A stretch of 44,289 nt of DNA, taken from the NCBI GenBank assembly GCA_913057645.1, contig CAJXOU010000022.1:1-44289 (forward strand). The letters are read 5' to 3'. This stretch comes from an uncultured Rhodobiaceae bacterium (lineage in GTDB: Bacteria; Pseudomonadota; Alphaproteobacteria; Parvibaculales; Parvibaculaceae). The notes beneath the pieces are model-generated. The model was not told the origin of the DNA, did no database searches, and was given only the letters and a program-made list of their open reading frames with translations. Numbering within the stretch: the first letter of the stretch is position 1; every line of letters begins with the position of its first letter. Below are positions 35,852-44,289 of this stretch, piece by piece. The translations under genes and the position numbers were made by a program.

Positions 35852-35930
35852 GGCACCGTTCCTAAGCCAGCACCGCTGAACCCGGGATGAACGAATAGTG
35901 CGGGTATCCGACAGGAATCGCCAGCCGCCG

Positions 35931-39758: not shown

Positions 39759-39950
39759 TCAGAATTCCGCTGCGGCAAGCGCCGCCTGCGGTTCATTCGC
39801 CACAGCAAACTGGGAGGGGCTGAACAGCGGTGCCCAGGAAAGGCCGGCATAGACACCGGCAGAGAAGAAGAGCAGTGCAGAAACGGCGAAGCCCGCCACC
39901 GCGATGAAGCGGCGGCGGGAACGGCGGTGATAGAAGATTTTCCTCGCCAT
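39759..39950 (-). CDS. Small single-TM protein
   Basis: A 63-aa protein with a strongly basic N-terminus (residues 1-14, HRRSRRRF), one hydrophobic segment (about 16-37, VAGFAVSALLFFSAGVYAG) and an Ala-rich tail. A GGGGAAGG Shine-Dalgarno precedes the ATG, which supports translation. No family is recognised. It may be an inner-membrane small protein or a signal-anchored peptide. It lies between the catabolic operon and the GTA-linked module, on the same strand as both. Confidence 0.6.
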   Translation of the reverse strand: MARKIFYHRRSRRRFIAVAGFAVSALLFFSAGVYAGLSWAPLFSPSQFAVANEPQAALAAAEF

Positions 39951-40054: not shown

Positions 40055-40079
40055 GCTCGAATTCGATCCAAATTCGAGC
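40055..40079 (-). terminator. Hairpin after the holin-like gene, possible terminator
   Basis: GCTCGAATT (40055-40063) and AATTCGAGC (40071-40079) form a perfect 9-bp stem with a 7-nt loop, starting 17 nt past the stop of the holin-like gene. The minus-strand tail is TTGTGCGTT, only partly T-rich, so termination is plausible but not certain. Confidence 0.5.
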
Positions 40080-40095
40080 GATGAAAATGATCCGC

Positions 40096-40287
40096 TTACT
40101 GCCTTTTGGCGTGACCGACGTTCAGCGCGACAATGTCGATGACCCGGGAGATCTTGCCCACGACGTCATCGTCCTTGCGCGTGGGCGTCGCCGCCGCAAC
40201 GGCCGATGCCGCGCCGACGATGGCGAGCGCCGCTTCGATCCATTCGGAGAAAGCACCCGAGAACAGACCCGATAGAAGAAAATCCAT
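40096..40287 (-). CDS. Phage-type small membrane protein, holin-like
   Basis: A 63-aa protein with a hydrophobic N-terminal half (about residues 1-32, including AALAIVGAASAVAAA) and a charged end (TPTRKDDDVVGKISRVIDIVA followed by LNVGHAKRQ). The TPTxKDDxVV...LNVGxAK ending is what I recall from small membrane proteins in tailed phages, often labelled holin. AAAGGAAAACAC gives a good Shine-Dalgarno. It follows the hydrolase-like gene by 18 nt in a two-gene unit next to GTA tail genes. Pore formation for lysis is inferred from context. Confidence 0.65.
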   Translation of the reverse strand: MDFLLSGLFSGAFSEWIEAALAIVGAASAVAAATPTRKDDDVVGKISRVIDIVALNVGHAKRQ

Positions 40288-40305
40288 GTGTTTTCCTTTC
40301 AGGAG

Positions 40306-40653
40306 TTAAGGCCCCTTCGCGCGGGGCGCGTAAAAGAGATGACCGCCGATCAGCGCGGTCGGCGCTTCGTTCGCCGCCCAGCCCGGGCACTCCGTGTGCG
40401 AATGAAATTGCGTTGCGCCATGCGTCGGGTCGGGCTCTTCGCCCGCCAGCGCGCGGCAGACGGCCGAAAGCGCGAGCGCAAGCTCGCGGTCCGGGCCCGC
40501 GCAGCGCCCGGAGATGCGGTTCACCAGCGCGAAAGCGAGCGCGAGGCGGCCCTCGTCCTCCTCCCCCCGGGCAACGGCACTCAGCTCCCGCGCCAACTGG
40601 ACCGGTCCGGCGAAGCCGCGGGGGCCGTCTGAGGGGTCACGCCCGCCATCCAT
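40306..40653 (-). CDS. Short SleB-like cell wall hydrolase relative
   Basis: A 115-aa protein that matches the pattern of SleB/Hydrolase_2 cell-wall hydrolases. An early helix (SAVARGEEDEGRLALAFALVNRI) corresponds to the family's EARGE...VALNR region. The end (DPTHGATQFHSH...PGWA...IGGHLFY) matches the family's DPTxGATxFH and GxHxFY signature. At the family's EARGE the protein has VARGE, so the usual catalytic Glu may be absent. There is no signal peptide, so export would need a holin or lysis route. The AAAGGAGC Shine-Dalgarno is strong. It is preceded by its own LexA-box promoter and followed by a holin-like gene. Confidence 0.6.
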   Translation of the reverse strand: MDGGRDPSDGPRGFAGPVQLARELSAVARGEEDEGRLALAFALVNRISGRCAGPDRELALALSAVCRALAGEEPDPTHGATQFHSHTECPGWAANEAPTALIGGHLFYAPRAKGP

Positions 40654-40700
40654 CCCGTCCGCTCCTTTCGTGTTTTCAGATACAAGGATTTAATTCCTAT

Positions 40701-40729
40701 ATATGAGAACAAAAAAGGAACATTGTCAA
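40701..40729 (-). promoter_or_regulatory. Promoter with consensus -35, driving the hydrolase/holin-like pair
   Basis: On the minus strand TTGACA lies at 40729-40724. A 17-bp spacer is followed by an AT-rich -10 region (TCATATATAGG, around 40706-40696). The stretch is conspicuously AT-rich in a high-GC window. The first ATG is about 45 bp downstream. The exact -10 hexamer is ambiguous. Confidence 0.6.
40707..40721 (-). promoter_or_regulatory. LexA/SOS box, GTTC-N7-GTTC
   Basis: GAAC AAAAAAG GAAC on the plus strand, which reads GTTC-N7-GTTC on the minus strand, the direct-repeat LexA operator of alphaproteobacteria. It lies precisely between the -35 and -10 elements, where bound LexA would block RNA polymerase. 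This predicts that the hydrolase-like and holin-like genes are repressed until DNA damage. Confidence 0.7.
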
Positions 40730-40755: not shown

Positions 40756-41457
40756 TCAGGCGCCCGGCCCGCTCAGCTCCAGGCAGTGGATTGCGAGCCG
40801 CACGCGGCCCCCGGTGAAATCGCCGCCTTCCGCCGTCAGGCGAAGCGGGGTCGCGCCGTAATAGGCGACCGGGGTGCCGCTCACGCCCGTGACCGTCGCG
40901 TGGAGCATCGCGCCGATGCCATTGCCGTAGCGCATGGGATCGTCGGCAACGCCGAGCTGCCAGGCGCTCGCGCCGGTGATCGCCTCTATCACCACGCCGG
41001 TCACGCCGAGCACGATGGCCCGGTCCGGAATGACGAACGGCGTATCGGAGGTCGCGCCTGCCCCCACCTCATGCTCGCCTTCCACGAGAGTAAATGCGGT
41101 CGCCGCGCCGCTCGCACCGCTCGCGGGCAGCGTCCAGCCCGTGCCGTCATGGAGCAGGAGCGCACCCGCCGCCTCGTCATAGGCTTGCCATCCGGCCTTC
41201 GCGGCGAAGAACATCCATGCACCGTCGATCAGCGCCGCGACCTCGCCGTCATGCCCTTCCCACGCGTCCTCGGCGTCCGCGGCCACGATGTAGCGCGCGC
41301 CCTCCTCCGGCTCGGCGGGCGGCACGGCAAGCGTCCGCGAGACGACGGAGAGATGCAGCAGCGCATCGAGCCGTCGCAGCGCCTCGTTCACGGTCACATG
41401 CTTCTGCGCCTGCGCGGCTTCGAGAAAGGGAAGTCCCAGATGAAAGCTATCCGACAT
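40756..41457 (-). CDS. DUF2793 family GTA/phage protein
   Basis: A 233-aa protein with the DUF2793 N-terminal signature (LGLPFLEAAQAQKHVTVNEALRRLDAL), found directly after the GTA g15-like gene in many alphaproteobacteria. The rest is beta-rich (repeats such as YIVAADAEDAWEGHDGEVAALIDGAW), as expected of a fibre, spike or receptor-contact protein of the particle. The start overlaps the g15-like stop by 11 nt. The particle role is inferred from synteny. The two-gene SOS-boxed unit lies downstream. Confidence 0.82.
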   Translation of the reverse strand: MSDSFHLGLPFLEAAQAQKHVTVNEALRRLDALLHLSVVSRTLAVPPAEPEEGARYIVAADAEDAWEGHDGEVAALIDGAWMFFAAKAGWQAYDEAAGALLLHDGTGWTLPASGASGAATAFTLVEGEHEVGAGATSDTPFVIPDRAIVLGVTGVVIEAITGASAWQLGVADDPMRYGNGIGAMLHATVTGVSGTPVAYYGATPLRLTAEGGDFTGGRVRLAIHCLELSGPGA

Positions 41458-44289
41458 GCAGCGTGGCGCTCCTTCCGGTGCCGCGGCCAAAGGCGCGGCT
41501 CAATTGATAGACGGTGACGTCGAGGGTCTCGATTTCTGTGCCGCCGAAGTCGGCGGCCTGTTCGCCGGCGTCGTAGATCGCCTCCGGCGATGCCGCAGCG
41601 ATGACGCGCTTCACGCCTTCGCCGTCGCGGATTTCGACTTCATAGGCTTCCGCTTCCTCGCCGAGCGGCACCTCGAGCCCGGCCCAGCTGTCGCCACCGA
41701 TGCGCGTGCGGCGAACCCAGGCGAGATGAATCGCGCCGTCGCCCGCGCGCCGCGCGCGAAGGTGAACCGGACTCAACGGGCGCAGTCCGGCGCCAGCGAA
41801 GGCGCGCGTCTCGCTCGCATAGGAGAGGTCGTCATGGGGGAGCGGCGCTGGCCCATAGACCCAGAGCCGTTCGAGCCCGCGCTCCGCTTCGCCGAGCCCG
41901 AGTTCGCCCACCGCCGCGTCGAGCAGCACGAAGCGTGCACCCGGAGCGAGCGGTGCGCGCATCGCCGCTTCCGTTCCCGCCTGTCCGCGCAGAAGCCCGC
42001 GCAACACATAGGTATCGGGCGCGACCAGTTCGGCCTCGCGAAACTGGATCACCTCCCAGTCCCCCTCCGGCGTTTCGAGCGCCGCGCGGTTCGCGCCGTC
42101 GAGAACGGCAAGAGGCTCCGCGCTCGCCAACGCGCCGCTGACCAGTTCGACGCTAAGCGCATTCGACTCGTCCCAGCGCGAAGTGGGTCCGGGCATCAGG
42201 TCGGACAGCGTGCGTCCGGTCGTTGCCTCCACGCTCACCACGGCGTCGAGCACGAGGCCCGCACCGCCATCCTTGTAGATCGCGATACCGCCCGGCCAGG
42301 GATCCGCTGCCACCGCAACGCGTGGCGCGTGAGGTACCTCCTCGCCCGTGACGAGCGGCAGGTCCATGAAGATGACGAGCGGCGTTCCCCAGTCCGGTGC
42401 CGTCGCGGGGCTGCTCTCGCGCGGCGGCGCTTCCGGTGCGCCGAACAGGCTCGGCTCGCAGGCGATACCCGCCGCCTCGCGCGCGCCCGCATCCACGATG
42501 CCCGTGAGCCGGTAGCGGCCTTGCCGGTAACCGAGGTCGAGTGTCACGCGGTCGCCCGGATCGAGCGCGATCAGGCTCGGCGGCAGGTTGAGCGCTGCGC
42601 GCTCGCGTTCCTCCCATGTCTTCTGCAACCAGACATCGGCGATCGCCTGCGCTTCCGCCTGCGTCAGCACCATCGGAAGCGCGCTTGCCGCAACGCGCTG
42701 GCTGCCGCCTGCGAGCCTGCGTGCTTCCACCGCCGCCTGCCGGTAGTCCGCGCCGCCATCGATATAGGTGAGCTTCGCCGAGACCGGCAGTTCCGTTTCC
42801 TGTCCGCGCGTGAGCTTCCAGCCGGGCGCCGCGCCTTCCGCGTCCACCGCCAGCATGTCCGGCGTCAGAGCGGTCTCCGGCGCGTCGTCCAGATGCCGGA
42901 AGCGGATCGCGCCCTCGCGCTCCGCCGCGTCGAAGAAGCCCGCCAGCATCAGGGGTTCGATCGCGGCGCGCGGGCTCATGATGCGGTCGATGACGTAGCC
43001 TTCAACGACGCCATGAAGATCGGCCGCCTCGAAATGTCCGAAACCGGCATCGCTCGCGATCGAAGCCAGAAGCGCATTCAGGGGCGCGGCGCCCATACGC
43101 CCGTTCAGCCAGTGGCCGAGCCGCCAGTTCGCCGCATCCGCCCAGACGTCGTGACGCTCCGGAAAGACCGGGAAGGGCCGCGCGTCCCAGGTCCAGAAGA
43201 AGATCCGCGAGGCATCGACCATCCGCCCGCCGTAAAGGGGCGACACCGGGTTTGCGCCCGCAGGGTGGTCGGGATGGTCCGCATCCCAATAGGACATCTC
43301 CGCCTCGATGAAGCGGCGCTGGATGAAGTCGTCGCGTGTCCCCCGCGAGAAACGCGGCAGCGCACTTTCCGAGGATTTCGGATCGGTAAAGACGTTGGGT
43401 TCGTTCGTTCCCTTGTCCGCCGCCGGGCAGCCGAGTTCGGTGAGCCAGATCGGTTTCGACTGCGGCACCCATGCCGTCGGTGCTGCCGCCTCGATTCCGT
43501 CCGGCCGGTCGTGATGCGCGTTCGACCACCAGTTCTTCAGGTCCTTCGCGCGCCACACCCACGGCTTGCCGTAGGCGCCGTCCGTGACCGGCGTGCGGAT
43601 CTGGTTGAGGCGGTCGTCTTCGCTCGCGTAGTACCAGTCGTGGCTTTCGCCACCGGCGATACGGCTCCTGAGATAATCGAGATCGTAGATCGAGCCCCAC
43701 TCCAGCGCATCGAGATACGCATGGCCGTCGCGCCAGTCGCTCAGCGGCGCATACATGTCGATACCGACGAAATCGATATTCGCATCGGCCCAGAGCGGAT
43801 CGAGATGGAACGCGAAGGCGCCGCCGCCCATATCGTGCCCGCGATATTCCGACCAGTCGGCGGCATAGGAAATCTTCGCCGTTTCGCCGAGGATCGCGCG
43901 CACGTCGCCCGCAAGCTCGCGGAGCGCCTCCACGGCGGGATAGTTTCCCTCCGCGTCGCGCAGTAGCGTCAGCCCCTTCAGTTCCGAGCCGATGAGAAAG
44001 GCGTCGACACCGCCCGCCTCCGCGCAGAGTTCGGCGTAGTGGAGCACCATGCGGCGGTAGCTCCATTCGCCGCCACCCGGCGTCTCGCTGCCGAAGAAGG
44101 CCGCGGCCTCCGCCGCCGGGTCGCTCACCGCGGTGAGGCGCCCGCGCCAGGGATGCGCCGGCTGGGTTCCCGCACCCGAAGGATCGGGCAGCATGTTGTC
44201 TGCCGGAATGTCCATCATCACGAAGGGATAGAAGACGATCGCGAGCCCGCGCGCCTTCAGTTCCGCGATGGCGCGCTTCACGCTCGCGT
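41447..44289 (-). CDS. GTA g15-like TIM-barrel/tail-hub protein, partial
   Basis: The C-terminal part (about 945 residues) of the large baseplate/hub protein of alphaproteobacterial gene transfer agents, which is about 1300 aa in Rhodobacter capsulatus. The N-terminus lies beyond the right edge. The GTA TIM-barrel (glycoside-hydrolase-like) domain is evident in GVDAFLIGSELKGLT, ISYAADWSEYRGHD and FVGIDMYAPLSDWRDG, and is followed by phage tail-type beta domains (for example VVEGYVIDRIMSPRAAIEPLML, read in part). It would form the tip of the tail that contacts and penetrates the cell surface. The gene is intact across the visible part, so this GTA cluster looks maintained. Confidence 0.9.
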   Translation of the reverse strand, partial: ASVKRAIAELKARGLAIVFYPFVMMDIPADNMLPDPSGAGTQPAHPWRGRLTAVSDPAAEAAAFFGSETPGGGEWSYRRMVLHYAELCAEAGGVDAFLIGSELKGLTLLRDAEGNYPAVEALRELAGDVRAILGETAKISYAADWSEYRGHDMGGGAFAFHLDPLWADANIDFVGIDMYAPLSDWRDGHAYLDALEWGSIYDLDYLRSRIAGGESHDWYYASEDDRLNQIRTPVTDGAYGKPWVWRAKDLKNWWSNAHHDRPDGIEAAAPTAWVPQSKPIWLTELGCPAADKGTNEPNVFTDPKSSESALPRFSRGTRDDFIQRRFIEAEMSYWDADHPDHPAGANPVSPLYGGRMVDASRIFFWTWDARPFPVFPERHDVWADAANWRLGHWLNGRMGAAPLNALLASIASDAGFGHFEAADLHGVVEGYVIDRIMSPRAAIEPLMLAGFFDAAEREGAIRFRHLDDAPETALTPDMLAVDAEGAAPGWKLTRGQETELPVSAKLTYIDGGADYRQAAVEARRLAGGSQRVAASALPMVLTQAEAQAIADVWLQKTWEERERAALNLPPSLIALDPGDRVTLDLGYRQGRYRLTGIVDAGAREAAGIACEPSLFGAPEAPPRESSPATAPDWGTPLVIFMDLPLVTGEEVPHAPRVAVAADPWPGGIAIYKDGGAGLVLDAVVSVEATTGRTLSDLMPGPTSRWDESNALSVELVSGALASAEPLAVLDGANRAALETPEGDWEVIQFREAELVAPDTYVLRGLLRGQAGTEAAMRAPLAPGARFVLLDAAVGELGLGEAERGLERLWVYGPAPLPHDDLSYASETRAFAGAGLRPLSPVHLRARRAGDGAIHLAWVRRTRIGGDSWAGLEVPLGEEAEAYEVEIRDGEGVKRVIAAASPEAIYDAGEQAADFGGTEIETLDVTVYQLSRAFGRGTGRSATLHVG

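Follow-up and report, generated by a model that had tools for sequence, protein, structure and literature searches.

Gene transfer agents and the sleB locus

In Rhodobacter capsulatus the lysis cassette of the gene transfer agent (GTA), RcGTA, consists of an endolysin and a holin encoded elsewhere in the genome and activated by GafA with CtrA (PMC6363796, PMC13236601). GTA production in this species needs LexA by an indirect route, apparently through cckA, and its mechanism was termed unknown (PMC9638019). No holin or endolysin was found for the Caulobacter GTA; particles are released by LypABC, and CdxB represses both gafYZ and lypABC (PMC13236601). Caulobacter RogA binds GGAA-N4-TTCC inverted repeats at gafYZ and represses these genes, silencing the GTA, and GTAs aid Caulobacter survival of DNA damage (PMC9632790). 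In Dinoroseobacter shibae, LexA sites were predicted at the promoters of the GTA cluster, lexA and recA (PMC6473078). In the open-access papers searched, neither a LexA operator at genes for GTA release nor a promoter combining LexA and RogA sites was reported.

The window analyzed here is the whole stretch of 44,289 nucleotides, taken from contig C22 of a 3.75-Mb genome that has Parvibaculum MAGs as its named close relatives. The minus strand carries, in this order, the GTA megatron, DUF2793 gene, a 102-bp intergenic stretch, an ORF for a SleB-like protein and an ORF for a small transmembrane (TM) protein (Table 1). The N-terminal part of the megatron lies on contig C83. A megatron (GTA_TIM) with DUF2793, as in RcGTA-type clusters, is present genus-wide, and gafYZ-like activator genes are found in the genome. 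A sequence-only reading of the window had proposed that the pair is linked to a GTA. This linkage is borne out by the megatron and DUF2793 genes immediately upstream and by G095, a member of another family, in which a GTA cluster has an intact SleB and a TM protein at its 3' end. The Shine-Dalgarno sequence, the two ORFs and the hairpin that it listed are all present. The hairpin was rejected as a terminator; the T-run is missing, and comparison with relatives gave poor conservation, none of it clear.

Table 1. Features of the sleB locus and the adjoining GTA genes in window coordinates.
Feature	Position	Strand	Basis or remark
Hairpin	40055..40079		9-bp stem; no T-run on minus strand
One-TM holin-like protein, 63 aa	40096..40287	-	phrog_9685, a PHROG without assigned function
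SleB-like and TM gene pair	40096..40653	-	behind megatron and DUF2793
SleB-like protein (Hydrolase_2), 115 aa	40306..40653	-	no evident signal peptide; Val in place of the canonical catalytic Glu
Shine-Dalgarno AAAGGAG of the SleB-like gene	40662..40668	-	sequence
Palindrome AGGAATTAAATCCT, predicted RogA-type operator over the presumed start site	40685..40698	-	matches GGAA-N4-TTCC
-10 element, CATATA or TATATA	40698..40705	-	18 nt or 20 nt past TTGACA
Predicted LexA box GTTCCTTTTTTGTTC, within the spacer of the promoter	40707..40721	-	perfect GTTC-N7-GTTC
TTGACA -35 element	40724..40729	-	sequence
DUF2793 gene, tail-operon end of the GTA	40756..41490	-	domain match
GTA megatron, 3' part	41447..44281	-	NF048004, 1231 bits; contig end falls inside the gene

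The locus would resemble the RcGTA lysis cassette in that putative release genes of a same-family GTA are controlled by host regulators. The R. capsulatus cassette, however, is a separate locus with a canonical endolysin under GafA/CtrA control and indirect influence of LexA, whereas the Parvibaculum genes are attached to the tail cluster, carry predicted LexA- and RogA-type operators in their promoter and encode a degenerate SleB. The Glyco_hydro_108 profile, which we take to represent the R. capsulatus-type endolysin family, had 0 matches in seven genomes and likewise 0 in the control genomes. The RogA-gafYZ circuit of Caulobacter crescentus shares a LexA/CI-like S24 repressor, a GGAA-N4-TTCC operator and a link to the GTA (PMC9632790, PMC11150451). 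It differs in that the Caulobacter site lies at gafYZ and the Parvibaculum site lies on the sleB operon, combined with a LexA box, and in that the Parvibaculum S24 protein retains its catalytic residues. The LypABC/CdxB system likewise places GTA release under host-encoded control, through a single repressor that ties lysis to activation, but LypABC are CARD-NLR-like proteins with no sequence kinship to the pair as judged by domain descriptions. In D. shibae, too, a LexA site was predicted computationally at a GTA gene cluster itself; unlike the sites described here, it comes from a PWM applied to a single strain and concerns the structural cluster and not release genes, and conservation was not tested there.

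An unannotated 63-aa ORF (MARKIFYHRRSRRR...) at window 39759-39950(-) has one hydrophobic stretch and is kept 3' of the pair in relatives, even where the GTA is largely deleted. This is the case in G002 (L062), where a tail-protein fragment leads straight into the remaining 3' portion of the TM gene. In G006 the main GTA cluster is accompanied by a second complete megatron locus (L157, G006:C1:288770-292675), downstream of which lies another set of genes.

A LexA box and a RogA-type palindrome in the sleB promoter

The GTTC-N7-GTTC element that had been read as part of a TTGACA-type promoter was confirmed between TTGACA and the -10 element. A strict sigma-70 scan of the window did not list the sleB promoter because its spacer is 18-20 nt. 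TTGAC is kept in 15 of the 17 aligned sleB promoters. The bare GTTC-N7-GTTC motif is not rare, with 2 matches in the window versus 1.4 expected and 126 genome-wide versus 50 in the reversed control; the 1.4 matches expected by chance per window mean that a bare box proves little alone. The AT-rich box type (GTTCHNWNWWTGTTC) is rare and occurs 9 times in the genome, at lexA, imuB and uvrA among other places, versus 0 in the reversed control. The lexA gene of this genome has a GTTC-N7-GTTC site (GTTCTAGTTTGGTTC) 87 bp upstream, and the same motif precedes imuB (9 bp) and uvrA (179 bp). These three genes were assigned from translated ORFs and a lexA family search. As in the alphaproteobacterial LexA regulon, sleB has GTTC-N7-GTTC in its promoter, and the site is of the same type as those at known SOS genes of this genome.

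Orthologous loci of relatives were collected through the TM protein and through the megatron. An exact box was present upstream of sleB in 18 genomes, the window's own included (G000, G024, G016, G025, G010, G013, G011, G009, G001, G012, G022, G014, G015, G033, G029, G007, G003 and G004, the last found reading the other strand). The N7 spacer varies between most species and the layout TTGACaatGTTC-N7-GTTCtcATATataGGAAt is constant in the promoter alignment; the aligned promoters were chosen for box presence, so the half-sites are invariant by construction and the genome count is the evidence. The box accompanies sleB across the genus and in a second genus of the family. In a 19th genome, G008, an insertion element separates the box and the palindrome from sleB. 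The one clear exception is G018, in which the box is absent, the 13-nt DUF2793-sleB spacer leaves no separate promoter and SleB is shortened. The G005 locus is cut by a contig end. Genomes without sleB also lack the box, and their TM gene follows either the megatron directly (G026, G017) or DUF2793 (G027, G031). Outside the family, a box was found within ~1.5 kb of the SleB-TM pair in 0 of 16 loci. Judged by these loci, the box is present wherever sleB has a separate promoter.

The box travels with sleB, and not always with the TM gene. G003, G004 and G007 have sleB and the box, and the TM gene was not found in these loci as far as they were fetched, which argues that sleB and the box belong together. 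Chance was ruled out as the origin of the box by its presence, with variable spacers, in the equivalent promoter of 18 genomes. The sequence-only reading had made its SOS hypothesis hinge in part on whether relatives that keep the genes also keep the box. They do, in 18 genomes and in split form in G008, and this conservation, together with the matching sites at lexA, imuB and uvrA, supports the predicted SOS-type control. The second match in the window (35878-35892) also recurs in the 12-kb loci of relatives, but it lies inside an ORF and its GC-rich spacer is nearly fixed, as expected if coding conservation maintains it; it is a useful control for the sleB box.

Two further observations concern these elements. 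The G008 locus (L052, C47) has a transposase gene within the sleB promoter region and a second copy of the palindrome adjoining sleB. Elsewhere in the window's genome, a LexA-type box (GTTCTATTTATGTTC) precedes an ORF with an MraZ-like translation at the start of the division cluster (L004, G000:C26:11160-11174), and the same 15-mer, GTTCTATTTATGTTC, precedes a protease-like ORF in L001.

A palindrome overlooked by the earlier reading lies ten bases downstream of the LexA box and was found in all box-bearing sleB promoters. The genome contains few AGGAATTAAATCCT-like sites at ≤1 mismatch. The best of the others (AGGAACTAAATCCT) is 42 bp upstream of a gene beside pyrD that encodes a 211-aa LexA/CI-like regulator with an HTH and a Peptidase_S24 domain (Pfam E = 8e-25). 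The orthologs of this regulator in relatives have related palindromes in their own promoters. A PWM was built from the autoregulatory sites of the S24 regulator only, with the window's clade excluded. It scored the sleB palindrome at 20.7 bits versus 10.8 bits for the next-best site in the 44-kb window. The site in the sleB promoter had the top rank in every sleB locus tested (12 of 12) and also across 20 kb of Parvibaculum lavamentivorans DS-1, a cultured type strain, which we take G013 to be. A GGAA-N4-TTCC-type operator is common to sleB and to the S24 regulator's own promoter, as would be expected of a RogA regulon. The PWM ranking, combined with the known GGAA-N4-TTCC specificity of RogA, points to a RogA-type operator beside the LexA box on the sleB operon. 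Predicted regulation of this operon by LexA and a RogA-type repressor is well supported by the comparative sequence data.

Domain make-up and operator type place the S24 protein in the RogA family, and its orthology to Caulobacter RogA (CCNA_00080) is putative. The family occurs in 51 of 98 genomes of the class, and RogA is likewise widespread, being reported in 819 of 1331 genomes (PMC9632790). The Parvibaculum protein retains the self-cleavage residues Ser (GDSMEP), Lys (VVVKT) and Ala-Gly (AQAG), and RecA-stimulated self-cleavage is possible on this basis; Caulobacter RogA is reported to be without key cleavage residues (PMC9632790). In two other bacterial families, the promoter of a rogA-like gene contains LexA-type boxes (GTTCCTGTTTTGTTC and GTTCTTTTTTTGTTC in L168 of G078 and L169 of G089), hinting at a LexA-to-RogA cascade.

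The SleB-like and TM proteins

The SleB-like protein matches Hydrolase_2 (PF07486) with E = 2.5e-6 and 28.5 bits, barely above the cut-off of 27, and only in the second half of the profile. It was aligned with Parvibaculum relatives, the intact homologs of G095, G080 and G059, and 4f55. The Glu of the GE[SA]RGE motif, which we take to be the catalytic residue (Glu157 by counting in 4f55), is replaced by Val in the window protein and by V/I/L/A/M/R in the aligned Parvibaculum proteins, from which the WQFSCWN stretch is also deleted. The Glu is retained in G004 (RDEVRGE), G095, G080 and G059, and conservation extends over a C-terminal GAT-FH-H-W-ALIG-FY block. A catalytic Glu is stated to be essential (PMC12331253).

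An AlphaFold2 model of the SleB-like protein has a pLDDT of 84.7. Foldseek ranks 1-3 in the PDB are SleB catalytic domains (4f55, 4fet), although the matches are weak (E 0.2-0.55, TM ~0.4), and VIA with the model gave a weak SleB match (Z 2.4) in a list of otherwise mostly helical background. The protein is like the SleB/Hydrolase_2 lytic transglycosylases in the C-terminal half of the domain and in a weak structural match, and unlike them in that neither the catalytic Glu nor the WQFSCWN stretch remains. The active hydrolase proposed by the sequence-only reading, which had overlooked the missing Glu, is not supported, as both features are gone from nearly all of these proteins. The "hydrolase" label is doubtful, and simple murein cleavage is disfavored because the catalytic Glu is lost. 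A second, full-length Hydrolase_2 protein is encoded elsewhere in the genome (C46). The dN/dS values for the sleB-like gene in four pairs (0.21, 0.35, 0.21 and 0.16) indicate purifying selection, as do those of 0.09-0.19 for the TM gene. A decaying sleB pseudogene was rejected on the 0.16-0.35 range of the four pairs; the gene has nonetheless been lost in several lineages.

The small protein, in which a single TM segment precedes a conserved TPT-KDD-G-ALN-G tail, has no Pfam or NCBIfam match and belongs to no named family. No annotated phage homolog was found for the window protein, and the versions from relatives match hypothetical proteins only. The TM gene adjoins an intact SleB gene in G059, G080, G095 (at the GTA end) and other alphaproteobacterial loci, an association that suggests an ancestral lysis pair. 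The earlier description of the protein as holin-like holds for its small size, its single TM segment and its place beside an endolysin-type gene; a holin role is a guess from the TM segment and the phage neighborhoods. The TM gene was not found in the fetched loci of G003, G004 and G007, and G017, G026, G027 and G031 have no sleB; each gene can therefore be dispensed with.

A candidate GTA release module and the gafYZ activator genes

The regulatory arrangement of the two operators is real, conserved and probably functional. We judge the chances to be even that the pair is a release module of the GTA, coupled to DNA damage and repressed by LexA and a RogA-type protein. The proposed mechanism starts with an old phage-type pair, SleB endolysin plus small TM protein, that closes the GTA cluster at its 3' end and would have gained its own promoter in the Parvibaculaceae. 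LexA bound to GTTC-N7-GTTC between the -35 and -10 elements would repress the operon, and a RogA-family S24 repressor would occupy AGGAAT-N2-ATTCCT, the palindrome that covers the presumed start site. By AND logic, transcription would require LexA cleavage (RecA*, DNA damage) plus loss of the S24 repressor. The latter retains the Ser, Lys and Ala-Gly residues seen in self-cleaving members of its family and so may answer the same signal. Once induced, the products would work at the envelope of the cell, where they would allow lysis and particle release or set their timing, with the TM protein expected to do the membrane step. Because its canonical catalytic Glu is missing, the SleB-like protein would be expected to bind or guide and not to cut, and cutting would fall to another enzyme.

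The same genes could form a classical endolysin-holin cassette derepressed by the SOS response, in which the SleB-like protein would be muralytically active despite its altered active site, with the TM protein serving as its holin. The recurrence of SleB and TM genes as an adjacent pair in phage-like loci, the three top-ranked Foldseek matches, the Glu of G004 and the conserved C-terminal block are consistent with this reading, but the replaced Glu, the deleted WQFSCWN stretch of the aligned Parvibaculum sequences and a structural match as weak as E 0.2 with TM ~0.4 make it unlikely. Loss of the catalytic residue under continued purifying selection, and an SOS-type promoter separate from the GTA operon, would also suit a brake, in which a pseudo-enzyme and a membrane protein delay or block lysis or GTA release during DNA repair. 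We consider a brake quite unlikely: no partner enzyme was identified, the ancestral pair in phage-like loci looks lytic, and RogA-type co-repression predicts expression alongside GTA activation and not opposed to it.

The position of the pair behind the megatron and DUF2793 tail genes, with the TM gene directly after the megatron in G026 and G017, raises the idea that both proteins are particle components that function in tail assembly or cell entry, SOS only boosting their late expression. A dual-operator promoter apart from the structural operon, a TM segment in a small protein and the loss of either gene from GTA-bearing relatives render this highly improbable. Bare GTTC-N7-GTTC motifs are common by chance, and the sleB box might not be a LexA site or might not function. 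This is scarcely credible for an element whose position, AT-rich spacer and half-sites are kept in 18 genomes and whose type recurs at lexA, imuB and uvrA. A damage-wired release module is the reading that we prefer.

Candidate gafY (Bac_DnaA_C) and gafZ (DUF6456) genes are present on contig C172 of this genome. The view that the Bac_DnaA_C match is an unrelated phage gene was dropped on the evidence of the neighboring DUF6456 gene and genus-wide presence. An exact LexA box was found in 13 of 22 Parvibaculum gafY promoters (L104, L106, L107, L109-L112, L116-L120 and L122), and G013 carries a box in both its sleB and gafY promoters. The LexA box was not found in the gafY promoter of this genome and its clade, and the RogA-type palindrome was not found in the gafY promoter of this genome. 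The G017 gafY promoter (L121) has a RogA-type site (19.7 bits) in place of the LexA box, the only one among those scanned. By these promoter comparisons, control at the GTA activator varies within the genus, unlike the sleB box.

A broader proposal, which we hold tentatively and with rather less than even confidence, is that the SOS response controls the Parvibaculaceae GTA directly and at two levels, through gafYZ LexA boxes in most species and, more widely, through the dual-operator release module. The ancestral endolysin would now be a conserved pseudo-enzyme, and damaged cells would release packaged DNA to their neighbors. If correct, DNA damage would be wired directly to the release of packaged genomic DNA, possibly for the repair of neighboring cells. 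LexA operators on the release genes and on the GTA activators of many species would constitute a simple, direct route from damage to the GTA, and a promoter under both LexA and a RogA-type repressor would put a lethal event behind a two-key lock. These predictions are testable in P. lavamentivorans DS-1.

A divergent XRE-family gene adjoins gafY in L067/L070 (G000:C172), and a conserved TTACAT...TTATCCCC...ACGAAATATGTAA region lies between the two genes. The placement of this XRE-family gene recalls that of rcc01866 beside gafA in R. capsulatus.
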